22,426 nt of DNA from a bacterium (GTDB taxonomy: Bacteria > UBP15 > UBA6099 > JAJRTR01). This document shows, piece after piece, positions 306 to 22,062 of the stretch (position 1 is the stretch's first letter; each line of letters opens with the position of its first letter). The notes under the pieces are model-generated. The model searched no databases, was not told the origin of the DNA, and saw only the letters and a list, made by a program, of their open reading frames with translations. The DNA is taken from contig JAJRTR010000096.1 in NCBI GenBank assembly GCA_024278215.1, positions 1 to 22,426 on the forward strand, read 5' to 3'. The position numbers and the translations under genes are program-made.

Positions 306-1067
306 TTATTTACACTGGCCGGGTACGCCGGTGTCTGAAGTCCCTTTCGGCTCGAATATCTTCACCGGGTTTCGAGCACCGCGGATTACGGCCTCGCCGC
401 ACTCTTCAAATCTCTCTGCCCCTGCCCGGTCGGCGACTTTCTCCGTAACGCCGATGCCGCCCGCACATTTCTCCGCGATCCATTGCATTGCGATAAACGC
501 CGTGTTCACAGGTTCGCCGATAATGTCTGTATTCGAATAGTCGGGATGCCCGATGATGCCGAGAAATATTTCACCCGTATTCAGGGAAACGACAAGGTCG
601 GGCTGATCGAGTATCTTTTTCGCATAGAGCGCCGCGTCGACGGCGCGTCCGGAATGCCGGGCTCCTGTAAAGAAGCCCAGGAATCCGTCGCCGACATATT
701 TCACCGGCACACCGTCGAACCGCATCACGGCTTCCGTGATCGGGGAAAAAATGCTGTTCACCCAGTCGGCCACCTCGCGCGGCGGCATAGTCGCCGCCCT
801 TACAGCGAAACCGTTGAGCGTGGTGCAGAAAACCGTTGCCTCGAACGTGTCTGTGTGAGCGGAAGTGCCGCCGAGCAGCCATTCGATGCTGACGCCCAGC
901 AGCCCGGCAAGGTCCACAAGCATGGCGATGTCGGGGGCATTTCCACCGCGCTCCCACTTGGAAACCGCCTGCGCGCTTATCTGCAACGCCCTCGCGATGT
1001 CCGACTGCCTGAGCCCGAGTATCTCACGTCTCGATTTTATTCTGGAGCCGAGTTTAGCGATGTCCAT
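306..1067 (-). CDS. XRE-family HTH regulator fused to a degenerate class III nucleotidyl cyclase domain
   Basis: Starting at the ATG at 1065-1067 the product is 253 aa. Residues about 7-60 form a Cro/C1-type helix-turn-helix ([20 protein letters not shown], then KWERG). Residues about 78-245 resemble an adenylate/guanylate cyclase domain: [44 protein letters not shown]. The adenine-contacting Lys (K123) and Asp (D181), one metal-binding Asp (D127) and the catalytic Asn (N188) are present. The first metal Asp is replaced by Thr (T83), and the transition-state Arg by Ile (I192). By the known chemistry of the family it should be poorly active or inactive, so the domain may sense a nucleotide. 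An in-frame ATG at 1187 would add 40 residues, but these run back through the promoter, so I reject it. Confidence 0.8.
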
Positions 1068-1073
1068 GCTTTT

Positions 1074-1103
1074 ATTGTACAGAGTGCCTGTTACATATTG
1101 CAA
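1074..1103 (-). promoter_or_regulatory. Probable promoter of the XRE-cyclase gene with overlapping palindrome
   Basis: On the minus strand a TTGCAA -35 box (1098-1103) and a TACAAT -10 box (1074-1079) are 18 nt apart. The -10 lies only 6 nt before the ATG, so transcription would start at or next to the start codon, giving an essentially leaderless mRNA. A perfect 10-bp palindrome, TATTGCAATA (1096-1105), covers the -35 box and is a plausible operator for the encoded regulator itself; that is inference. Confidence 0.4.
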
Positions 1104-1105
1104 TA

Positions 1106-1344
1106 ACCGGGTGGTTGAATCAGGTGGCGCAGTTGTTGACAAATGTGGGGCACCCGGGAAGCAAGTTGGTGGATACCATACATTCATAGTATCTCATCAG
1201 AGCCTTGTTTACCCTGCATATTTCACCGATACGGGCTAAAAATCGGGAGAAAGCCATTAATACAAGGCACGGCAAGTGAGTGGTGAGGGAGCATACTGCA
1301 TGTATGTGCCCGATCCCGAAGCGCCTCCGCAACGCAGTAAAATA
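1106..1344. other. Gene-poor stretch upstream of the decayed element
   Basis: No convincing gene is visible. The stretch contains an imperfect hairpin around CATAC-TGCAT-GTATG (about 1288-1302). It also holds most of a 14-mer, ACGCAGTAAAATAG (1332-1345), found again at 4089-4102. A long minus-strand reading frame crosses it, but it has no family resemblance and no ribosome site. It is probably the degraded 5' side of the mobile-element remnant that follows. Confidence 0.35.
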
Positions 1345-4178: not shown

Positions 4179-4207
4179 TTGTCAACAGACGTGGAATGTG
4201 GTAAAAT
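4179..4207 (+). promoter_or_regulatory. Sigma-70-type promoter of the envelope operon
   Basis: TTGTCA (4179-4184) and TAAAAT (4202-4207) are separated by exactly 17 nt, which places the transcription start near 4214. This puts the possible TTG start codon at 4179 inside the -35 box and the ATG at 4212 at or before the transcription start, so it fixes the FliD-like gene start at 4230. It diverges from the zinc-ribbon promoter about 40 bp away. Confidence 0.5.
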
Positions 4208-4229
4208 CCAAATGGGAGAATATACCGTT

Positions 4230-5543
4230 ATGAATCTTATGTCAATAGTGCCTCAATCATTTTTCAGCTTCGGTGATGTACTGTCGGGCGACAGGTCTAT
4301 GACAGGAATTTTCTTCCATGCTTCGCAACAACTTGCTCATCGAAAAGAAACGGACAGGAACGACCTCTTTGTCAACAGAATCAATGCGAGAGTAAGTGAT
4401 CTGAAGGATAAGGCTACAGAGATGTACGATGGGAACCCGGGCAGGAAGCTGTTCGAGGCGCGGGCGGTAAGTTCAGCCAACAACAGGGTAGTCACGGGCG
4501 AGGCGCGCGACAGCGCTTTCCTGTCGAGATTCAATATCAAAGTTAAAAGGACAGCCACATCGCAGGCTGTGGTTTCAGACGTTTTTAAGCGCAGTGAATC
4601 CATGGGCCTGACACGCACCTTCTACGATTTCTCCGTCAACAGGGGCTACGGCGACAGCGAGCGGATACGTGTCAATATCAGGCTGGACGATACGAATAAA
4701 GAGGTTCTGAACAAAGTCGCAGATGCGATAAACGATGCAGGCATAGGGATTTCCGCGGAAGTGCAGGAGAACTTTCAGGCACGCACAGTACGTCTCGAGA
4801 TCGAGGGCATCGACCGGTCGGAAATGAGTTCCATCGCGCTTAAAGACGAAAGCGGCGACCTGCTGAAACGCCTGGGTATCAGCACCAGCCAGTACTCGGA
4901 CAACTCGACCGGTGGCCTGAACCCCGTTGTCGGCGATGCGCTCGTCGAGATAAACGGTCAGGAGTTCACAAGCGATTCCAACAGGATTTATCTGTACGAC
5001 GGCACACTGATATACAATGAAGACTTGGTTTCCACGAAAAATGCGGAAGGCGGTTTCAGAGGCAACTACAGGGCAACATTTGATCTCAAGGGCACCAATA
5101 TTGAAGATATACAGACCGATATCACGAAAGACAACGATAAGATCGCGGCAGGTATTGAAGACTTCTACGGCTCTTTCAACCGGACAATTGATACAATGGA
5201 TTACTCGCCCGTGTTCGCTTACGCGTCGACTTCGAATTATCTCAACAACATTATGGAACGCAACGCGAACGACCTGGCCGACGCCGGAGTGACGAGCGAA
5301 CAGATAAGTGAAAAAGAAAAGGAATACCGCGTGGGAAGTGAGAAGCTTCTCGACAGTTTACGAAACAACTTCAGTGACCTGAAAGATTTATTTGCCGGTG
5401 CAGGTGGAATTGCTCAGAAATCGCTTTTCGGCATCGATAAGCTTACCTTTGCGCCCATGATCGGGTTCAGCATTTTTGAAGCGGACGCAAAACCGACGAA
5501 TTATTTCTACGCTTCGGGATTTCTTTTCGACGGCCACTTCTGA
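4230..5543 (+). CDS. FliD-like (flagellar hook-associated protein 2-like) protein
   Basis: The product is 437 aa from the ATG at 4230, which follows GGGAGA (4213-4218). Several segments match the order of FliD. INARVSDLKDKATEMYD (52-68) is like the first coiled part. SSANNRVVTGEA (81-92), then RFNIKVKRTATSQAVV (100-115), is like the ATSS..V..A..TYTIKV..LA stretch. NKVADAINDAG (161-171) is like LA.AIN. KEYRVGSEKLLDSLRNNFSD, then LKDLFAGAGG (364-393), is like the KL..AL..NP..V..LF.G end. FliD caps growing flagellin filaments. No flagellin, fliS or other flagellar gene is nearby, and the usual N-terminal GLD...LV..LM motif is missing. The last 40 residues are aromatic-rich and unlike FliD. It may be a repurposed surface-filament cap or adhesin. 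No signal peptide is obvious. Confidence 0.6.
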   Translation: MNLMSIVPQSFFSFGDVLSGDRSMTGIFFHASQQLAHRKETDRNDLFVNRINARVSDLKDKATEMYDGNPGRKLFEARAVSSANNRVVTGEARDSAFLSRFNIKVKRTATSQAVVSDVFKRSESMGLTRTFYDFSVNRGYGDSERIRVNIRLDDTNKEVLNKVADAINDAGIGISAEVQENFQARTVRLEIEGIDRSEMSSIALKDESGDLLKRLGISTSQYSDNSTGGLNPVVGDALVEINGQEFTSDSNRIYLYDGTLIYNEDLVSTKNAEGGFRGNYRATFDLKGTNIEDIQTDITKDNDKIAAGIEDFYGSFNRTIDTMDYSPVFAYASTSNYLNNIMERNANDLADAGVTSEQISEKEKEYRVGSEKLLDSLRNNFSDLKDLFAGAGGIAQKSLFGIDKLTFAPMIGFSIFEADAKPTNYFYASGFLFDGHF

Positions 5544-5660
5544 TTTTTCAACTCTATCAAAATTCCATTGAAAAACATGAAATTATTTTATGCGTCGAAG
5601 TGTCGCGATTCAGTATCTCTGGGTATTGTATCCAAAACGGGTCGACCGGAGTTTTATTAC

Positions 5661-8093
5661 ATGATGAATGAGGGCAACGAGATAAACGAACACAAAGCCG
5701 TTCCGCGGGAGCAGACGCATGGGCCGGCCCGGCTGATCCATATCATGATCCCGGTCTTCTGTTTTCTCGTCACCACGGTCTTCCTTGCGAGCGCACTGAA
5801 CCCGTTCCTGCCGGTGAAAACATTTCTGCTTCAATTGACAGTTGTGGGAGGCCTGCTGGTGTGGGCCTACGAAGCCCTGCTCGAGGGGCGGCTCAGGGTC
5901 GTCAGGACTCCGGTTGATATTTTTTTAATCATTTTCCTTCTGTGGATCGGCATCACAGGCCTCTATGCGGCGAACCGTCCGCTGTGGCTCGAACAGTTGA
6001 CACTGCAATTGTGCGGAGCGGCGCTTTTCTATTTCATCGTTTTCTATTTTCGAGACAGTCTTGCTGTCGAAAAACTGATTTTCTATATGCTGATACCAGT
6101 TTTCGTAGTGGGCGCACTCGCGATATTTGATCTTAAAGCAATGAGTTTTTTTCCATGGGATTTGCTGCTTGTCAACAATCATTACTCGGTTTTTAAGTTG
6201 CTTGGAGTAGACGGTACGGTGCCTGGCACATGGGACGGCAACTTCGACGGGCGCGTATCGGCGAGTTTCGGCAACCCGGTGTATCTGGCGGGGTGGGTTG
6301 TGCTGATGCTGCCCGCGGCCTGGTCTGTCTACAAATCTTCGGAGTCACCGGTGCGAAGGACCGTATCACTCGCCGCGGTTGTGGTTCTCCTTTTCCTGCT
6401 TATCGTTACATTCACGAGAAGCGCATGGGGCAGCGCACTGATTTCGCTGGCTGTGTACAGGCTGTTGACGAGACGCCGCCGCCACAGCCGTTGCGCCGAA
6501 CCGTCGCGCCAGCTCGGCACTGTTGTAATTGTGATCGCACTCATTTTCTTTGCGCTGATGTTTGCGAAGAAAGGTGTGTTTAATCCCAACTTCTCGATCG
6601 CCGGGAGACTGTCGAGTATCGTGAAGACGGGCGACGAAAGCCAGTTGCAGCGTGCACTGATATGGAAAACCACCTGGGAAACGATAAAAGACAATCCGCT
6701 CAAGGGCGTGGGGCTGGGCAACTACCAGGTGTTTCACCCATGGTACCAGACACAATTCTTCAAAGACGGATTCTGGCGCGAATATGTAAGTTTTCCGGAG
6801 CGGGTGCATAACGAGTACATGGAATTGACCGCCGAAACAGGCGTGCCGGGACTGATCCTGTACATCGCATTAATAGCCGCGATTATCCGAACAGGGTTTA
6901 AAGCACTGTCGAGCGAAGGCCGCCGGGGCGAACTTGCTACCGGCATACTTTCCGGTTTTGTGGCGCTTCTGCTGTACGCGCTGTTCCAGTTTCCGATGCA
7001 CATTGTGCCGGTTCACAGCTATTTCTGGATAATGGCCGGTGCGCTGGTTGTGCTGGGGCATGGCGACAGTCTTTGCCCATCCTTAATCGTCATAAGAACT
7101 CCGGGTCGCAGCCGCGAAAAAGTCATTGCTATGGTTACATTCACTGTGATGTTCCTTCTCTGCGCATGGAGCCTCTTTACACCGACCCTGGGTCATATTT
7201 CCTTTTTCAGGGGAATAAGAGCTGAAAATACGGATGATATAAATAGGGCGGCGCGCCTTATGGAAAACGGCATCGCGTCCAACCCCGGCAGCAGGGAGAT
7301 GTATATCAGGTATGGCGCAAAACTGAACGCGTTCGCCGACAGTACGCAGGGAACCTGGGAACGCAAAATGTTGTTGGAGAAAGCAAGGAACATGTCTATT
7401 CAGGGAATGAAATATCATCCCTACGAAGAGAGACTGTACCTGAACGCCGGTGCGGCGTCGATATCGCTGGGAGAACCTGAAAAAGCCAGGCTGATGCTTG
7501 AATATGCAACCGTTTTGAATCCATCGGACCCGGTTGCTATTTACAATCTGGGGATTGCCTATTACATGATGTCAATGTATAATAACGCGAAATATATATA
7601 TGGTAAAAGCATTGAAACGGGAACCGTAGTGCCGGGCGCGTACCTGAATCTGGGACGTGTCCACAGCGCGTTGGGGGAACACAAAGAGGCACTCGAAGCA
7701 TATCGCAAAGCATTAGAAGAACAGGGCGTTTCCGGGGATGTCTACTACAGTATGGGGCTGTCCTACTCGGCAATGGGCAACAGAGAAGAAGCTGTCTCCT
7801 GCTACAGAAAAGCACTTGCCGCCGATCCTGACAACATGGACGCTCTTGGTAATCTTGGCATTGAGAAACTGGAATCGGGCGATTACGACGGGGCTTTGCG
7901 CGACCTCGGAAAGGTGCTCGGCTCGCGACCTGATTCCGGTATTGCTATGTACCACATCGGACGAGCATACTACCGTATGGGGAATATGAACGCGGCGGAA
8001 ACCTGGCTGAAAAACGCGGCGGTTGAACTGCCCGGACATGAAGGAATAAATAAGTTGCTGAACAGTATCGTAAGAAAGGGAATAAGTGAATGA
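5661..8093 (+). CDS. O-antigen ligase/oligosaccharyltransferase-type membrane protein with C-terminal TPR repeats
   Basis: From the ATG at 5661 (GGAG at 5648-5651) the product is 810 aa; an upstream ATG at 5568 adds 31 residues but has no ribosome site. The first 510 or so residues hold about ten to twelve hydrophobic membrane segments, with FTRSAWGS (about 251-258) and a large extracytoplasmic loop carrying RVHNEYMELTAETGVPGLI (about 381-399). These are the hallmark Arg and His positions of the Wzy_C family, which includes WaaL ligases, Wzy polymerases and PglL/PilO-type protein O-oligosaccharyltransferases. Residues about 520-800 form TPR repeats (YLNAGAASISLGEPEKARLM, YLNLGRVHSALGEHKEALEA, YYSMGLSYSAMGNREEAVSC). 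TPR-tailed members may act on protein acceptors. Which reaction it performs is undecided. It overlaps the secretin gene by 4 nt (ATGA). Confidence 0.8.
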   Translation: MMNEGNEINEHKAVPREQTHGPARLIHIMIPVFCFLVTTVFLASALNPFLPVKTFLLQLTVVGGLLVWAYEALLEGRLRVVRTPVDIFLIIFLLWIGITGLYAANRPLWLEQLTLQLCGAALFYFIVFYFRDSLAVEKLIFYMLIPVFVVGALAIFDLKAMSFFPWDLLLVNNHYSVFKLLGVDGTVPGTWDGNFDGRVSASFGNPVYLAGWVVLMLPAAWSVYKSSESPVRRTVSLAAVVVLLFLLIVTFTRSAWGSALISLAVYRLLTRRRRHSRCAEPSRQLGTVVIVIALIFFALMFAKKGVFNPNFSIAGRLSSIVKTGDESQLQRALIWKTTWETIKDNPLKGVGLGNYQVFHPWYQTQFFKDGFWREYVSFPERVHNEYMELTAETGVPGLILYIALIAAIIRTGFKALSSEGRRGELATGILSGFVALLLYALFQFPMHIVPVHSYFWIMAGALVVLGHGDSLCPSLIVIRTPGRSREKVIAMVTFTVMFLLCAWSLFTPTLGHISFFRGIRAENTDDINRAARLMENGIASNPGSREMYIRYGAKLNAFADSTQGTWERKMLLEKARNMSIQGMKYHPYEERLYLNAGAASISLGEPEKARLMLEYATVLNPSDPVAIYNLGIAYYMMSMYNNAKYIYGKSIETGTVVPGAYLNLGRVHSALGEHKEALEAYRKALEEQGVSGDVYYSMGLSYSAMGNREEAVSCYRKALAADPDNMDALGNLGIEKLESGDYDGALRDLGKVLGSRPDSGIAMYHIGRAYYRMGNMNAAETWLKNAAVELPGHEGINKLLNSIVRKGISE

Positions 8094-9481
8094 GAAGTAA
8101 AAATCTCTTTCCGGCATTTTTATTTTTGTTGCTTGTGCTTCTATTTAACTTCGGGATTCGTGCGGCACAGGCTTCCGATATAAATTATGACCAGAAAATA
8201 ACGCTTAATTTAAAAAACGCCGAAATAACGGACGTATTCAGACTGATTGCCGAACAGAACGATCTGAACATAGTTGTATCCCCGTCCATAAAGGGGCGAA
8301 TCAGCCTCAGACTTTCAGATGTAACACTCCGGGAAGCTATCGATGTAATACTTGATGCTGTCGGCGCAAGGATAGAAGAAACCGAAAATATCATGCACAT
8401 TTACTCCATCGGCGAACGCGACGCGCTGGACACCAAAAAGGGCCAGATGGTCACCGAGATTTTCACGGTAAACTATATAAAAGTATCCACGCTTCTTTCA
8501 ATCATACAGGATTTCCTCAGCATCGAAGGCAAAGCAAAGTCCTACAAGCGGGCGAAAGGCAGCAACCCGCCTATGATTATTGTTCAGGATTACCCTGAAA
8601 AAGTCGAAGCGGTAAGAAAACTGTACGAAAAACTCGACACGGAAACACGGCAGGTAATGATCGACACGAAAATCATAGAAACCGGTTTCCAGAATGTTGA
8701 CTTGAAGGGAGTCGACTGGACAATCGGCGCGTCATTCCAGGGGTCACCTGTAGGGATAGACACGAAATATGGAGGTGCCTCCGGGAAAATCGACTACGGA
8801 ACCCTCAGCTTCAGCGCATTCAATGCGGTGTACCAGAGATTGATGGAAGACAACAGCACAAATGTTCTTTCCGACGCAAAGCTGGCAGTCCTCGACGGCG
8901 AGAACTCCCACATTCATGTTGGCGATACAATACCTGTAGGGCTCAACACAATAAGCTCCGGCGCAGGCGGTACGGTGAACTACGGAACCACAAATATACA
9001 GAAATGGGAGATCGGAGTTACCGTCGATGTGACACCCACAGTGATCGACAACAACCTCATAAGGATGAAAATCCAACCGGAAGTCAGCAGTTTGCAAGGG
9101 TATAACAACACAGGCCAGAATCAGGACAACTACAATAACAACACCACCAACAATTCAAATGCTCCTATCACCTCGTCGCGTTATGTCGACACCCAGATTA
9201 TCATCCGGTCGGGCGAAACAATCGTCATCGGCGGCCTCGTCCAGGATTCCGTGTCGACACGCGAAAGGAAAGTTCCGGTTCTCGCCGAGTTACCGCTGAT
9301 AGGCAGCGTTTTCAGAAGAAAAGATGTTCAGAAGAGAAAAACGAACATGATCATATTCATAACCGGCAGGATTATCGCGCTCAAGGGCGATGCCTATACC
9401 CGGCCTGAAGACACACAATACAAGCCCGCTGCCGGCGAGAACGACAGGGAGGCTCTGGATAAATTCCTCGAATACAAATGA
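8090..9481 (+). CDS. Short secretin (PilQ/GspD superfamily outer-membrane channel)
   Basis: The 463-aa protein starts with a signal peptide (about 1-28). It then has an STN/secretin N-terminal domain (about 36-108: NLKNAEITDVFRLIAEQNDL, then NIVVS), an N1/NolW-like domain (about 122-185: FTVNYIKVSTLLSIIQDFL) and a C-terminal secretin domain (about 187-430). The signature VPVLAELPLIGSVFRRKDVQ (395-414), followed by NMIIFITGRII, is the classic secretin end. Secretins form 12-15-mer gated channels for type II/III secretion or type IV pili. An Asn-rich loop (about 339-356) lies inside the barrel domain. It lacks AMIN domains and pilMNOP or gsp neighbours, so the system it serves is unknown. ATGA overlaps on both sides show tight coupling with the ligase-like gene and the lysine-rich gene. 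Confidence 0.9.
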   Translation: MRSKNLFPAFLFLLLVLLFNFGIRAAQASDINYDQKITLNLKNAEITDVFRLIAEQNDLNIVVSPSIKGRISLRLSDVTLREAIDVILDAVGARIEETENIMHIYSIGERDALDTKKGQMVTEIFTVNYIKVSTLLSIIQDFLSIEGKAKSYKRAKGSNPPMIIVQDYPEKVEAVRKLYEKLDTETRQVMIDTKIIETGFQNVDLKGVDWTIGASFQGSPVGIDTKYGGASGKIDYGTLSFSAFNAVYQRLMEDNSTNVLSDAKLAVLDGENSHIHVGDTIPVGLNTISSGAGGTVNYGTTNIQKWEIGVTVDVTPTVIDNNLIRMKIQPEVSSLQGYNNTGQNQDNYNNNTTNNSNAPITSSRYVDTQIIIRSGETIVIGGLVQDSVSTRERKVPVLAELPLIGSVFRRKDVQKRKTNMIIFITGRIIALKGDAYTRPEDTQYKPAAGENDREALDKFLEYK

Positions 9482-11832
9482 TGATATCTAAATTTGCAAA
9501 AACAGTTTTCTTATTACTTTCCTTCCTGATTTTCATTGCCTCCGCGACACCTGCCGCCCCCGCATCCATAGATATTGTTTCCGCTTGGGACAAATACTAC
9601 GGCCTTGTATATTCGGGAGTACCGGACGGGCTGAAAGAAGGCCAGGTATATGAAGTATGGCGCAATGGAGAGAAAATCGGCACATTCAAATTTATGCAAG
9701 TTGATCAGTCGTTCTCCAAAGGACAGTTTTTCCCTGACAGCGATCAGCTCATACTAAAGAAGAAGGATAAATTACAACTTGTCGCGGAAGGTCTTAACCC
9801 GCCGCTGAAAAAAACTGAAGAAAAAAAGAAGGAAAAGACCGAACCACAGAAAACGGTTTCACCAAAAACAACCTCAACCGAGGGGAAAGAACAAAAAGCG
9901 AAAAACAGGAAGATCAGGAAATCTCCCAAAAAAGCGGTCCGTGTCAAAAAGAAAAAGCACAGCGCAACGAAAAAACAGACTGTGCCGCCGTCGGCTGAAA
10001 AGCCGGAAAAGAAACAACTTGAAGAAAAAGAATCATTTTCACTTGTCAGGGAGCAGGATATAATAAAAAAGGATAAAGAGAAAAAAGCGAATGAATCAAG
10101 CCGCTATTCGAGCAGGATACTGACATACAGTGATACCGATTCGGATGACGACAAGAAGTTGAATAAGGAATCAACCGCAAAAGAAGTAACGGATTCGAAA
10201 AAGAAAACAAGCAGGTTCGGACATATTATTATCGAGAAAACGTCTGAAAGAGCTATAGAAGCACCGCCCGAGAAAACGACGGCGGCAAAACCTGAAAAAC
10301 AGAATGTCTCAAAACATAAAGTTGCTAAAAGGAATCCGTCGTCAAGAAAAACACCTGCCGGAAAACGTCATAAGAAACAGACCTCGCCGGAAATGGCGGA
10401 AGCGGCCGTATCTGAAAAAAAGACGCAGGAAGAAAAAACGAGCAAGCCCGTGGAGAAAAAGCGCACAGATCGTGTTGCGAAAACGCAATATAAGCAGCCG
10501 GCACGGAAAAAGCATGAAACGGCCAATACTGAAAATAAATCCAAAAAAGCAAAACTCAAAGTCGCAAAGAAAATATCCGGGCCTGTAAAAAGCAAACCTG
10601 TAAAAGCTAATAAAGATGGTTATGATGTGAATGAGGCAATGACCGTCAGTCAGCACCTGAACGCCGGCGACAGGCTGATGGCCGAAAACAAATATCAACA
10701 GGCTTTAAAGCATTATCTCGCGGTTATTGCTGAAGAGCCGGGAAACGAAATCGCGAAAAAGAAAATCGTTCTGGCAATGCGTAGCATGGATATACTGTCC
10801 CCTGACAAAAAAGAGACCTCCAATTCGAGAAAAACATCGAACAGGTTCGGGCACATAACTATTGAAAAAGTTTCTGAAACCGGCAATGAGCAGTTGCCTG
10901 AAGAAAAAACTGAAAGGCTGGTGAAAAAAGAAAAGACTGCTCGAAAAGTTACAGTTGCAAAAAAACCGGCGAAAAAGAAGGCCGCACGTGCAGCGAAAAA
11001 AGAAACTGCACACGAGGGATCGAAGGCGAGTAAAAAGAAAATAGAAAAAAAGAAGTTCGCTGAAAAGACCGTCGTCTCCGCCGGAACCGAAGAAAAGATA
11101 AAGAATAATAACACAGCGAAACGGGTGAAGAAAAAGAAGAAAGCTGTCCGCGCGGCGAAAAAGAACCGCAAAAAGGGGAAAGCAAAGTCCGGAGACAACG
11201 CAAGGAAACAACAGGTGGCAAAGAAGAAGTCTGAACCTGAAAAGAGTGAACCTGTAAAGATAAAAGGCAGCTATGATGAAGAAGTTTTCATGACCATAAA
11301 TCGGCATCTGGAAGCCGGAAACAGCTATATGGTCGAGCGAAAATATCCTGAGGCATTGAAACATTATTCGGCTGTGATTGCGATGGACCCGGAAAATGTT
11401 ATTGCAAGAAAAAATATGGTTCTGGCAATGAGGAAACTTGATATACTGCCGGCTGACGCGGCAGCTACTTATGATGAATGGAAAGAGCATCAGTATAAAA
11501 AGGATATGGGGAAGAATTTCAACAAGGAATATCCCGCAGTCGAACAGGTAATGGATGTCTCTCAGATGGAGAATAATTACGGCGTATTCATGGTTGGGCA
11601 GGGCAAGTACGAGGAAGGCATATTATGGCTCACGAAAGCAATAAACGGAAATTCTCAAGTTGCGGAATATTATCGCAACCGGTCTGTAGGCTATTTCTAT
11701 AATGGTGAGCTGTACAAAGCCGTGGACGATGCGAAAAAAGCGCTTGATCTTGGAGACAGCAAGGCCAGAAACTTGCTGCTGACCATACGTGACCGAATCA
11801 TCGCAAAAGGCCTCGAAGCACAGAACCGATAA
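9478..11832 (+). CDS. Secreted lysine-rich protein with SH3-like N-terminus and duplicated RFGHI-TPR modules
   Basis: The 784-aa protein has a signal peptide (about 1-29, ending PAAPAS). An all-beta SH3-like domain follows (about 31-103), reminiscent of the FlgT C-terminal fold. Two tandem modules come next, each a short RFGHI(I/T)IEK(T/V)SE motif (246-256 and 456-466), a long Lys/Ala/Glu-rich low-complexity linker, and a TPR-like unit (382-440 and 599-657). The two TPR units align: HLNAGDRLMAENKYQQALKH with HLEAGNSYMVERKYPEALKH, and IVLAMRSMDIL with MVLAMRKLDIL. Two or three further TPR-like helices close the protein (690-775). The linkers resemble histone H1 tails and would bind polyanions such as acidic polysaccharide, LPS or peptidoglycan-linked polymers. 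I do not recognise the whole protein. Its place between the secretin and HtrA suggests a periplasmic or surface role with the secretin. Confidence 0.75.
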   Translation: MMISKFAKTVFLLLSFLIFIASATPAAPASIDIVSAWDKYYGLVYSGVPDGLKEGQVYEVWRNGEKIGTFKFMQVDQSFSKGQFFPDSDQLILKKKDKLQLVAEGLNPPLKKTEEKKKEKTEPQKTVSPKTTSTEGKEQKAKNRKIRKSPKKAVRVKKKKHSATKKQTVPPSAEKPEKKQLEEKESFSLVREQDIIKKDKEKKANESSRYSSRILTYSDTDSDDDKKLNKESTAKEVTDSKKKTSRFGHIIIEKTSERAIEAPPEKTTAAKPEKQNVSKHKVAKRNPSSRKTPAGKRHKKQTSPEMAEAAVSEKKTQEEKTSKPVEKKRTDRVAKTQYKQPARKKHETANTENKSKKAKLKVAKKISGPVKSKPVKANKDGYDVNEAMTVSQHLNAGDRLMAENKYQQALKHYLAVIAEEPGNEIAKKKIVLAMRSMDILSPDKKETSNSRKTSNRFGHITIEKVSETGNEQLPEEKTERLVKKEKTARKVTVAKKPAKKKAARAAKKETAHEGSKASKKKIEKKKFAEKTVVSAGTEEKIKNNNTAKRVKKKKKAVRAAKKNRKKGKAKSGDNARKQQVAKKKSEPEKSEPVKIKGSYDEEVFMTINRHLEAGNSYMVERKYPEALKHYSAVIAMDPENVIARKNMVLAMRKLDILPADAAATYDEWKEHQYKKDMGKNFNKEYPAVEQVMDVSQMENNYGVFMVGQGKYEEGILWLTKAINGNSQVAEYYRNRSVGYFYNGELYKAVDDAKKALDLGDSKARNLLLTIRDRIIAKGLEAQNR

Positions 11833-11836
11833 ATTT

Positions 11837-13333
11837 ATGACAAAACCACACAACATTATACGAATGTTCATCGTATGCTTGATTTTCCTGGGCACTGGAA
11901 TAATAGTCGGCGTCTACCTGAGTTCGGACCACCGCGGCGCATTTTCAAAGTCTGACGGCGGCGATGCGGAGATACAGATTGCAGGCGAGCGGGCCTTTGC
12001 ATCGGAATCCGCCGACAGAGAACCCGACGATTCCGTATCTTTACGCCGCACCCCGGTCGTCCGGGCTGTAGAAGAAGTGGGACCGGCAGTCGTGAACATC
12101 AGTACAGAAAAGATTGTCACACGTCATGTAAACCCTTTCGGCGGATTCAGCAATAGTTTCTCTAACGATCTGTTCGACCGGTTCTTCGATAGATATTACA
12201 CCAGGAATTACAAGCAGCAAACTCTCGGTTCCGGGGTAATTATCGATCCGCGCGGCTACATTCTCACAAACGACCATGTGATACTTCGCGCATCCGAGGT
12301 GACGGTAACACTTCCGGGCGACGAGGAATATGACGCGAAGATCATAGGTGCAGACCCGAGGTTCGACCTTGCCATACTGAAGATCGAAGCGGGCGAGGAA
12401 CTGCCCGCGGCCAGCACAGGCGACTCCGACAGTCTCATGATCGGTGAAACGGTTATTGCAATCGGCAATCCTTTCGGCCTCAGCCATACTGTCACTACCG
12501 GTGTGCTCAGCGCCGTGAACAGAACTATAAAAACACAGGAAGGTAAAATATTCAACGACTTCATACAGACCGACGCTTCCATTAACCCGGGAAACAGCGG
12601 CGGGCCTCTCGTAATCCTCACCGGCGAAGTAATAGGTATAAATACCATTATTTATGAAAATGCCGAGGGCATAGGCTTTTCTATCCCGATAAACAGGGCG
12701 ATGCGTGCCGTGAGCGAGCTCATACAGTTCGGAGAAATCAAGAAAACATGGACCGGACTTCGAGTGCAGGAAATGAATAGGGCACTGGCTCGTCAATTCG
12801 GATTGTCGAAAGTTCAGGGCGCGCTGGTTTCGCATGTTATAAGCGGCAGTCCCGCCGCTCGCGCGGGAATCCGCGAAGGTGATGTCATTCTTGAGGTTAA
12901 TGGAAAGAACCTGAAATCGGCTGATGAATTCATGGAAAAAACAGGAGCGTCGATAGCAGGCGAAACCATAGATATATTACTGCTGCGCGATGGTAACGAC
13001 AAAAACATATCACTCAGGATGGAAGCCCTGCCCATCGACCGCGCCGAAGAACTCGGCCGCGAACGGTTCGGTGTGAAAGTCGACTCCATTACACGCACAT
13101 ATATCCGCCGCTACAATCTGCGCACCGACCGCGGTGTCATCGTCCTGAAAGTCGACAGCGGCAGCCCGGCAGACGAGATCGGCATCACCACCGGTGACGT
13201 CATAAGAAAAATCGGTGTGCGTGAAATTGTCGGCATCGACGACTACAGAGAAACCGCTGTGCAGGCCGCCGAGCGCGAGTCTGTTTTCATGGTCGTCCAG
13301 CGCGGCTCCTACCTCTACAACATCAGACTCTGA
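11837..13333 (+). CDS. DegP/DegQ-type (HtrA) periplasmic serine endoprotease
   Basis: From the ATG at 11837 (498 aa) an N-terminal hydrophobic segment (about 9-28) acts as signal or anchor. A trypsin-like protease domain follows, with the catalytic triad His147 (LTNDHVI), Asp177 (FDLAIL) and Ser254 (NPGNSGGPL). Two PDZ domains come next: WTGLRVQEMN...GALVSHVISG and FGVKVDSITR...GVIVLKVDSG. HtrA proteases degrade or refold damaged envelope proteins. The gene begins 4 nt after the lysine-rich gene, with no promoter in between, so it is the last gene of the envelope operon. A GTG at 11789 would extend it by 16 residues into the upstream gene, but those residues precede the hydrophobic segment and have no ribosome site. 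Confidence 0.92.
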   Translation: MTKPHNIIRMFIVCLIFLGTGIIVGVYLSSDHRGAFSKSDGGDAEIQIAGERAFASESADREPDDSVSLRRTPVVRAVEEVGPAVVNISTEKIVTRHVNPFGGFSNSFSNDLFDRFFDRYYTRNYKQQTLGSGVIIDPRGYILTNDHVILRASEVTVTLPGDEEYDAKIIGADPRFDLAILKIEAGEELPAASTGDSDSLMIGETVIAIGNPFGLSHTVTTGVLSAVNRTIKTQEGKIFNDFIQTDASINPGNSGGPLVILTGEVIGINTIIYENAEGIGFSIPINRAMRAVSELIQFGEIKKTWTGLRVQEMNRALARQFGLSKVQGALVSHVISGSPAARAGIREGDVILEVNGKNLKSADEFMEKTGASIAGETIDILLLRDGNDKNISLRMEALPIDRAEELGRERFGVKVDSITRTYIRRYNLRTDRGVIVLKVDSGSPADEIGITTGDVIRKIGVREIVGIDDYRETAVQAAERESVFMVVQRGSYLYNIRL

Positions 13334-19722: not shown

Positions 19723-22062
19723 ATGCAATTTAAAGGACTTACGCTCGACCCGTTTCAGGAAGAAGCAATTCGCGCGGTGGATGCGAACCATTCGGTAATC
19801 GTAGCCGCGCCGACCGGAGCCGGAAAAACGGTTATCGCCGAATATGCGATTGAAAAAGCTATCAAAAATGACAGGCAGATAATATACACTGCGCCGATCA
19901 AAGCGCTGAGCAACCAGAAATACCGCGACTTTTCGCGCGATTATCCCGACAAGATCGGCATTATGACAGGCGATGTAATACTTAATCCGGAAGCGCCGAT
20001 CCTGATTATGACTACTGAAATATTCAGGAACATAATCTTCGACGCGGGCGCGAGCAGGCTTAAGGAAATCGAATCCGTAATATTCGACGAAATACATTAT
20101 ATAAACGACATCCAGCGCGGTACGGTGTGGGAAGAAAGCATAATTTTCGCGCCGCAGCACATTACGTTTATCTGCCTCAGCGCCACGATACCCAACTTCG
20201 ACGAGTTCGCGGACTGGATGCGCAGTGTGCGTGATAAGCCGATTCAGTCGGTAGTCGAGAAGCACCGTCCCGTGCCCCTCAAGATACATATATGGATACC
20301 CGGATTCGGATTCAGGGACATAAACTTCATCAAAAAGCTCGAGAAGGAAAAAAACAAATACAAGCGCTCGCGCAGGGCGACGAATGTTGATCTTGTATAC
20401 CACCTTCGGCGCGAGAAACAACTGCCGTGCCTGTATTTCCACTTCAGCAGGATAGGCTGCGAGGAGTATGCGCAGCATTTCAGGGGCATCAACCTGCTCG
20501 ATCATGACGAGCGGCGGCAGGTACTGTCTATATATGACGAGCTTTGCAAGCAATTCGGCGTGAGTCTCCGGGGGCAGGCGAACCTGATGCGAAACCTGCT
20601 GAAATCCGGTGTGGCGTTTCATCATGCAGGAGTGCTGCCCTCGCTCAAGGAGATACTCGAGCGCCTGTATACGATGGGCCTGATAAAACTCCTTTTCACA
20701 ACCGAAACATTCGCGGTCGGGATAAATATGCCGGCGCGCGCCGTGATCTTCAACAATATAATGAAGAACGACGGCATATCGTTTCGCTATCTCACAGCCC
20801 GCGAATTCCAGCAGATGTCGGGACGCGCAGGACGCAGGGGCATCGACGATGTCGGCTATGCCTACGCCTGCATCCAGCCGCGCGACGCCAACTACAAAGG
20901 TGTGCGGCAGTGCATGTCCAAAGACGCGGAGGACATTCAATCGCAGTTCAGCCTTTCATACTCGAGCATCCTGAATCTCTACGACACATTCGGCGACGCC
21001 GTCTATGAAGTCTGCGAGATGAGTTTCAACAATTTCAAAACCATCGCCCAGGTAAAGGGAATCAGGAAACACGCGGCAGGTGTCAGCAAACAGATCGACC
21101 GCCTGAAGCATTTCGATTGCCTGCACGGAGATTTCTCCGCACACTTCATGCCGTATATGGAAATTCGAGACCGATTCTTAAAGCTGGAAAAGAAAATCAA
21201 GATGCGGAAGAAAAAAAATAAGCCGCCGCGTTTCGAAGACATCGAACGGCTCAAGCAGATCAAGCATGAACTTGAAAATACTGCCTGCATGGCATGTAAG
21301 AAACGGAAAGTCTGCCTGGGTATTCACAAAAAGATCAAAAGGCATGAGCTGCAACTCAAGGATTACAACGACGAGATATACGAAGTCGAAAACTCACAGA
21401 AGAGCATACTCGAGCGGCGCGTCAACTTCCTCAAAAAACTCGGCTATGTCGACGACAAGGGCCTTCTGCCTCGCGGTCGTATAGCATCGCAGATATTCGG
21501 CTATGAGATAGTATTCACCGAACTTTATTTCGACGGCATATTCGAGGTGCTGGACGAGCGCGCTATGAATGTCCTCGTATGCTCGATAGTGTTCGAGTCG
21601 CGCCGCGGGGCAAAATATCGGAAGCTCAACGACCAGGTTATCGCGGCAAAGCTCCGCAGGGCCGAGGACACTGTAAGCTGGCTCATGCGCAAAGAGATGG
21701 AAGAAGATGTGCCCGGCCTGATCAAGCCGCTCGACCCAAAACTTAATAAGGCTGTTTACGAATGGTCTTCAGGGTGCAGTTTTGAAGACCTTAAGAAGTT
21801 CACATCCGGCGACGAAGGCGATCTCGTAAGGTCGTTCCGGCTGATTGTGGACTTCCTGCGACAACTCAAACGGGCGATAAACGAACCGATCTTCAGGACG
21901 AAAGTCGACAAGTGTGTCGCGCTTATGTACCGCGATGTGGTCGATGCCGAAGCGCAACTTAAAACAGACCTTAAAACGGAAGACAGGCAAGAATCAACGC
22001 ATGAGGAAAACAGGATACGGGAATTATCCGCAGGTGAAGCGAAAAAAAGCGAAAACAGATAA
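19723..22062 (+). CDS. Ski2-like superfamily 2 RNA/DNA helicase (DEAD/DEAH box) with DSHCT-like C-terminus
   Basis: The 779-aa protein has all SF2 core motifs: Walker A APTGAGKT (29-36), TAPIKALSNQK, MTTEIFRN, DEIH (122-125), SAT (153-155), FHHAGVLPSLKE (299-310), TTETFAVGINMPA (326-338) and QMSGRAGRRG (364-373). These define the Ski2/Mtr4/HelY group, ATP-driven RNA unwinding enzymes; a role in RNA turnover is inferred. A charged coiled region (450-570) carries C522-x2-C525-x5-C531-x3-H535, a candidate metal site. The last third resembles a DSHCT domain. The final 40 residues are polar and variable. The ATG follows TTGAGAAAAACATT, a modest ribosome site. The downstream nuclease gene overlaps or closely follows it. 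Confidence 0.9.
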   Translation: MQFKGLTLDPFQEEAIRAVDANHSVIVAAPTGAGKTVIAEYAIEKAIKNDRQIIYTAPIKALSNQKYRDFSRDYPDKIGIMTGDVILNPEAPILIMTTEIFRNIIFDAGASRLKEIESVIFDEIHYINDIQRGTVWEESIIFAPQHITFICLSATIPNFDEFADWMRSVRDKPIQSVVEKHRPVPLKIHIWIPGFGFRDINFIKKLEKEKNKYKRSRRATNVDLVYHLRREKQLPCLYFHFSRIGCEEYAQHFRGINLLDHDERRQVLSIYDELCKQFGVSLRGQANLMRNLLKSGVAFHHAGVLPSLKEILERLYTMGLIKLLFTTETFAVGINMPARAVIFNNIMKNDGISFRYLTAREFQQMSGRAGRRGIDDVGYAYACIQPRDANYKGVRQCMSKDAEDIQSQFSLSYSSILNLYDTFGDAVYEVCEMSFNNFKTIAQVKGIRKHAAGVSKQIDRLKHFDCLHGDFSAHFMPYMEIRDRFLKLEKKIKMRKKKNKPPRFEDIERLKQIKHELENTACMACKKRKVCLGIHKKIKRHELQLKDYNDEIYEVENSQKSILERRVNFLKKLGYVDDKGLLPRGRIASQIFGYEIVFTELYFDGIFEVLDERAMNVLVCSIVFESRRGAKYRKLNDQVIAAKLRRAEDTVSWLMRKEMEEDVPGLIKPLDPKLNKAVYEWSSGCSFEDLKKFTSGDEGDLVRSFRLIVDFLRQLKRAINEPIFRTKVDKCVALMYRDVVDAEAQLKTDLKTEDRQESTHEENRIRELSAGEAKKSENR

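Follow-up and report, generated by a model that had tools for sequence, protein, structure and literature searches.

What does the 784-aa protein encoded between a secretin gene and an HtrA-type protease gene do in this bacterium? The window analyzed here is the whole 22,426-nt stretch (JAJRTR010000096.1; contig C67 of the source genome, hereafter G000). An initial annotation, made from the letters alone, read the protein as a polycationic secreted protein built from duplicated RFGHI-linker-TPR modules. The genomic context, which that annotation did not use, points instead to a partner of the adjoining secretin. The features discussed below are as follows.

5568 to 8093, forward strand: Wzy_C/O-antigen-ligase-like membrane protein with C-terminal TPRs, same operon
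8090 to 9481, forward strand: secretin of about 460 aa, GspD/PilQ type, with N0, STN and secretin domains; 4-bp overlap with the 784-aa ORF
9464 to 9478, forward strand: FLEYK, the last five secretin codons, proposed ligand of the TPR block
9478 to 11832, forward strand: FlgT_C-like/linker/TPR protein, 784 aa, predicted to be exported (ORF, Pfam, self-alignment, orthologues)
9478 to 9564, forward strand: signal-peptide-like N-terminus without lipobox, residues 1–29 (direct reading)
9562 to 9789, forward strand: six-strand beta domain like the FlgT C-terminal domain, residues 29–104 (model and fold match)
9790 to 10212, forward strand: linker 1, Lys-rich and of low complexity
10213 to 10239, forward strand: RFGHIIIEK, motif copy 1, residues 246–254
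10252 to 10620, forward strand: linker 2, Lys-rich
10621 to 10797, forward strand: TPR unit copy 1, residues 382–440, a lineage-specific duplicate
10843 to 10869, forward strand: RFGHITIEK, motif copy 2, residues 456–464
10882 to 11271, forward strand: linker 3, Lys-rich
11272 to 11448, forward strand: TPR unit copy 2, residues 599–657, the copy common to orthologues
11548 to 11829, forward strand: C-terminal TPR pair and capping helix, residues 691–784, the best conserved helical part
11837 to 13333, forward strand: HtrA/DegQ-like serine protease with two PDZ domains, starting 4 bp past the 784-aa ORF

The composition and architecture of the protein were examined. By residue count it carries a net charge of +77, with 18.6% Lys and no Cys. 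Its N-terminus resembles a type I signal peptide by direct reading, which supports the earlier claim of export, and the architecture is indeed unusual. Pfam TPR_2 matched three stretches (E 6e-13), and the structure model of the TPR region was helical with TPR-like pairs. The C-terminal TPR pair (residues 691–784) lies outside the duplicated unit and had been missed by the initial annotation. The duplication itself is real: behind each RFGHI motif come a Lys-rich linker and then a TPR unit, in two copies, and self-alignment of the protein halves scored 330, whereas the highest of 500 shuffles reached 116. The motif segments are identical at 10 of 15 positions (67%) and the TPR copies at 34 of 59 residues (58%; 118 of 177 DNA positions), while the linkers are 31.7% identical, compared with 30.3% for shuffled linkers, confirming that the motif was kept while the linker drifted. 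None of 20,000 shuffles of the G000 linker contained two or more RFG[HY] motifs. A search of G000 for the RFGH pattern gave 11 DNA matches versus 6 with the reversed control; on inspection, none of those outside this ORF lay in a likely gene.

Orthologues were compared in order to see which of these features are kept. They were confined to this phylum, sampled by seven genomes; none was found in 53 genomes outside it, and the search of genome contigs returned them from these phylum genomes only and none from viral contigs. They lie in bacterium ADurb.Bin236 (G003; MWCD01000053.1, contig C53), RA.bin91 (G005; JAKLIR010000184.1, contig C95) and USCA_metabat.19 (G006), the last in two pieces. The comparison rests on three independent lineages and one outgroup, whose genome is 78% complete. 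The full-length orthologues are 27–29% identical overall and about 38–45% in the end domains, and all three lack Cys. What stays constant across these sequences is an N-terminus resembling a signal peptide, then a FlgT_C-like beta domain, a linker of low complexity and TPRs at the C-terminus; Cys is absent throughout, and the gene keeps its position between secretin and HtrA in an operon linked to GspL/GspM/GspC-like genes.

The RFG motif behaves differently. It occurs twice in the G000 linker, five times in that of G005 (locus L029; RFGY, RFGH and RYGL forms with a single TPR block) and is absent from the G003 orthologue (locus L028); RFGH is common to the G000 and G005 proteins. Moreover, the G000 TPR copies are closer to each other (58% identical) than to the orthologues (34–39%), indicating that the RFGHI-bearing duplication belongs to the G000 lineage. 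The three-part module was rejected as a conserved unit: real as it is in G000, one orthologue has five motifs and no extra TPRs and another has no motif, which, by the initial annotation's own standard that homologues should not lack the motif, tells in part against its reading. RFG is, on this evidence, a genuine short linear motif, real but not universal, and RFG[HY] is regarded as a putative accessory docking motif in the linker. A RYGRxDPFAP stretch (RYGRPDPFAP or RYGRSDPFAP) was observed in GspC/PilP-like proteins (L028 16292–16954, L102 12625–13497 and L103 1886–2743); its likeness to RFGH is probably a coincidence.

The linkers also bear on the reading, drawn from the initial annotation, that RFGHI modules and Lys-rich linkers bind anionic polymers such as LPS, peptidoglycan or an acidic polysaccharide. 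The sugar-ligase-like gene in the same operon and the linker net charge of +78 in G000 would fit such a role, but the charge falls to +24 in G005 and to 0 in G003, the orthologue without the RFG motif, and linker length varies as well. The polycationic character thus stands for G000 and is lineage-specific; a conserved polycation was ruled out, which argues against binding of these polymers as the core function and leaves this explanation unlikely.

The domain called SH3-like in the initial annotation holds as a six-strand beta domain, and the model built from 12 sequences was confident (pLDDT 92.6). In this model it shares the fold of the FlgT C-terminal domain of the flagellar H/T ring (3w1e, 8z5n), with Z 11.0–11.3 and rmsd 1.5–1.7 over 72–74 residues at 12–14% identity; the next unrelated matches were F1-ATPase barrels (Z 8.8). 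The Foldseek E-value against FlgT, 7e-3, is weak on its own. In contrast to FlgT, the 784-aa protein had no Pfam match to FlgT_C (PF16538), its paralogues scored 16.0 and 14.1 bits against a gathering score of 27, and the locus is not flagellar. Within the phylum the domain has expanded to between four and eight matches in each genome; outside it, occurrence is sporadic (26 of 283 genomes). The paralogues L034, L035, L036, L037, L039 and L040 (also L032 and L033) combine it with a low-complexity linker that is Lys-, Ser- or Arg-rich, and by direct reading the C-terminal segment of most is a probable outer-membrane barrel, which makes an envelope location of the 784-aa protein plausible. A 715-aa secretin elsewhere in the genome (L111 6212–8359, contig C176) has an N-terminus that reads FlgT_C-like; only its secretin domain was confirmed.

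The ligase-like gene, the secretin, the 784-aa ORF and HtrA overlap or abut within 4 bp, and the neighborhood was followed across the phylum. In G000, G003 and G005 the gene is flanked immediately by the same secretin (46–50% identity) on one side and the same HtrA (53–54%) on the other, and in G006 both junctions, secretin/TPR and TPR/HtrA, are present on separate contigs. The G003 operon runs through GspL-like (PilM and PilN domains), GspM/PilO-like, GspC/PilP-like, ligase-like, secretin, TPR protein and HtrA genes; the GspL/M/C-like genes of G000 are on contig C180. The ligase-like gene sits between the GspC-like and secretin genes in G003 and beside the secretin in other phylum genomes. 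In G002 the GspL/M/C-ligase-secretin genes are present, and the secretin is followed by a glutamyl-tRNA synthetase gene on the opposite strand. Neither the GspL-like gene nor the TPR protein nor the HtrA orthologue had a match in G001, a congener of G003 with a 97% complete genome, which retains a different HtrA as well as other secretins and PilM proteins. The genes for canonical type IV pilus PilM/PilQ, for a Tad secretin and for one more secretin lie away from the operon. A dedicated GspE ATPase was considered and rejected: the GspE/PilB-type genes found are unlinked to the operon and also occur in G001, where the GspL-like gene and the TPR protein had no match.

Other observations were made in the window and the genome. 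Just upstream of the operon, an ORF at 4179–5543 (forward strand) gave weak FliD_N and FliD_C matches. At 306–1187 (reverse strand) an XRE-type helix-turn-helix is fused to a weak nucleotidyl cyclase match (PF00211, E 3e-4, just under the cut-off), an unusual combination, and 19723–22062 (forward strand) encodes a Ski2/Mtr4-like DEAD-box helicase with a DSHCT domain. On contig C200 of G000, five tandem type IV pilin-like genes lie beside PilB/PilC-like genes (L135 554–2626).

The C-terminus of the secretin was then compared among these genomes. The four genomes that carry the TPR protein all have secretins ending in FLEYK, preceded by a diverged tail. Within the last 30 residues, seven columns were invariant across three lineages, including all of the last five (hypergeometric P 1.5e-4). 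The orthologous G002 secretin, which has no TPR gene adjacent, ends before the tip. The HtrA orthologue persists in G002, behind metK in an unrelated location, indicating that presence of the tip tracks the TPR protein and not HtrA. The co-occurrence of FLEYK and the TPR protein is a correlation seen in few lineages.

The tip might be conserved for reasons other than binding the TPR protein: translation may be coupled to the start codon that follows, or the HtrA PDZ domains may recognize the secretin C-terminus. PDZ domains bind C-terminal peptides, the HtrA has two of them, and all four genomes share the 11 bases leading up to the overlapping stop/start. The Glu, Tyr and Lys codons, DNA-identical in these genomes, may thus be kept by selection acting on the start region of the gene downstream. 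Against coupling, the Phe and Leu codons vary synonymously with the residues unchanged, and no clear Shine-Dalgarno run was read in the shared bases. A role as HtrA signal is disfavored by G002, which has the HtrA orthologue without the tip, and a terminal Lys, as in FLEYK, is atypical among PDZ ligands. We regard either explanation of the tip as improbable.

A precedent is found in the Tad system, where the TPR groove of TadD binds the four C-terminal residues of RcpA and the secretin requires these residues to assemble (PMC10499894). As in our locus, a TPR protein is paired there with a secretin whose unstructured tail ends in a short conserved tip, and it is mainly because of this precedent that a TPR-tip mechanism is proposed. 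From the sequence anatomy, the fold model, the synteny with secretin and HtrA and the joint occurrence of protein and FLEYK tip, all established by computation, we propose, with a probability of roughly 0.5, that the 784-aa protein is an unlipidated, periplasmic, pilotin-like TPR partner of the upstream secretin whose TPR block captures the tip. The protein would be exported by Sec to the periplasm, where the C-terminal TPR block would capture the free tip and thereby stabilize the secretin or promote its assembly, much as TPR pilotins and docking proteins such as TadD and PilF/PilW act. The FlgT_C-like domain may contact another part of the envelope complex, with the long low-complexity linker as a flexible tether between the beta domain and the TPR block. 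The RFG[HY] motifs in the linker may serve as accessory docking points, multiplied or lost among lineages.

The proposed partner differs from known TPR pilotins. TadD is a lipoprotein without an N-terminal beta domain or long linker, whereas the 784-aa protein is Cys-free and adds the FlgT_C-like domain and the RFG motifs. PilF, PilW and Tgl of type IVa pili share TPRs with it; unlike them, it has no lipobox, and the canonical pilM...pilQ locus of G000 lies elsewhere, on contig C109. The literature describes TPR pilotins as lipoproteins (PMC4311626). The TIGR02521 (pilW) model scored 22.6 bits against a cut-off of 154, a weak match of the C-terminal TPR pair (E 6.3e-5). Membership in the TadD/PilF/PilW/Tgl lipoprotein families was rejected and the protein was not filed as a TPR pilotin, because it lacks the lipobox Cys and falls far below the cut-off of the pilW model. 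Since both Cys and lipobox are absent, piloting to the outer membrane by a Lol-type route is not expected. TadD and PilF were not among the 50 listed Foldseek matches of the C-terminal model, which is uninformative because the link between the TPRs was modeled with low confidence.

The nearest positional analogue is MshN of the MSHA pilus locus, where a TPR gene, a secretin and GspL/PilO-like genes share an operon, as here in G003. There an ExeA-like ATPase gene, mshM, lies between the secretin and TPR genes (PMC4624765), whereas in G000 the TPR gene overlaps the secretin by 4 bp, with no mshM between them, and is followed by HtrA. Deletion in Vibrio of mshN, the TPR gene in the operon of the secretin MshL, left surface pili unreduced (PMC4624765), so a TPR protein linked to a secretin is not necessarily an assembly factor. 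The 784-aa protein could be a MshN- or FimV-like scaffold of the same secretion system, linking the inner-membrane GspL/M/C-like parts, HtrA or the cell wall, with no binding of the secretin tip and no part in secretin assembly. MshN, which shares its operon with MshL and the GspL/PilO-like MshI/MshJ and is dispensable for pili, fits this explanation, as do the same synteny and co-loss data and the derivation of the FlgT_C-like fold from a flagellar envelope ring. It leaves unexplained why the secretin tip is present only alongside the TPR protein, and we consider it possible but doubtful. That the protein is a substrate leaving through the secretin, rather than a machine part, appears very improbable: it is encoded beside the secretin, exported and has a fast-evolving linker, but TPR domains and this operon position are typical of machine parts, and its N-terminal domain is common to proteins apparently anchored in the outer membrane.

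The protein is most readily viewed as a new form of secretin-associated TPR protein, so far restricted to one small phylum. A wider reading, more tentative than capture of the tip, is a class of secretin partners in which an unlipidated TPR protein holds the tip while the separate FlgT_C-like domain and a varying number of RFG[HY] motifs, carried on a disordered linker, recruit a further envelope partner; if true, multivalent docking would replace lipid anchoring, so far in one tiny phylum. Little is known of how bacteria outside Pseudomonadota assemble and hold their secretins, and searches for pilotins usually target lipoproteins. If the proposed secretin partner is right, it would provide a concrete case of a five-residue secretin tip paired with a TPR block that has no lipid anchor, as well as an example of a repeated-motif linker evolving fast beside conserved end domains.
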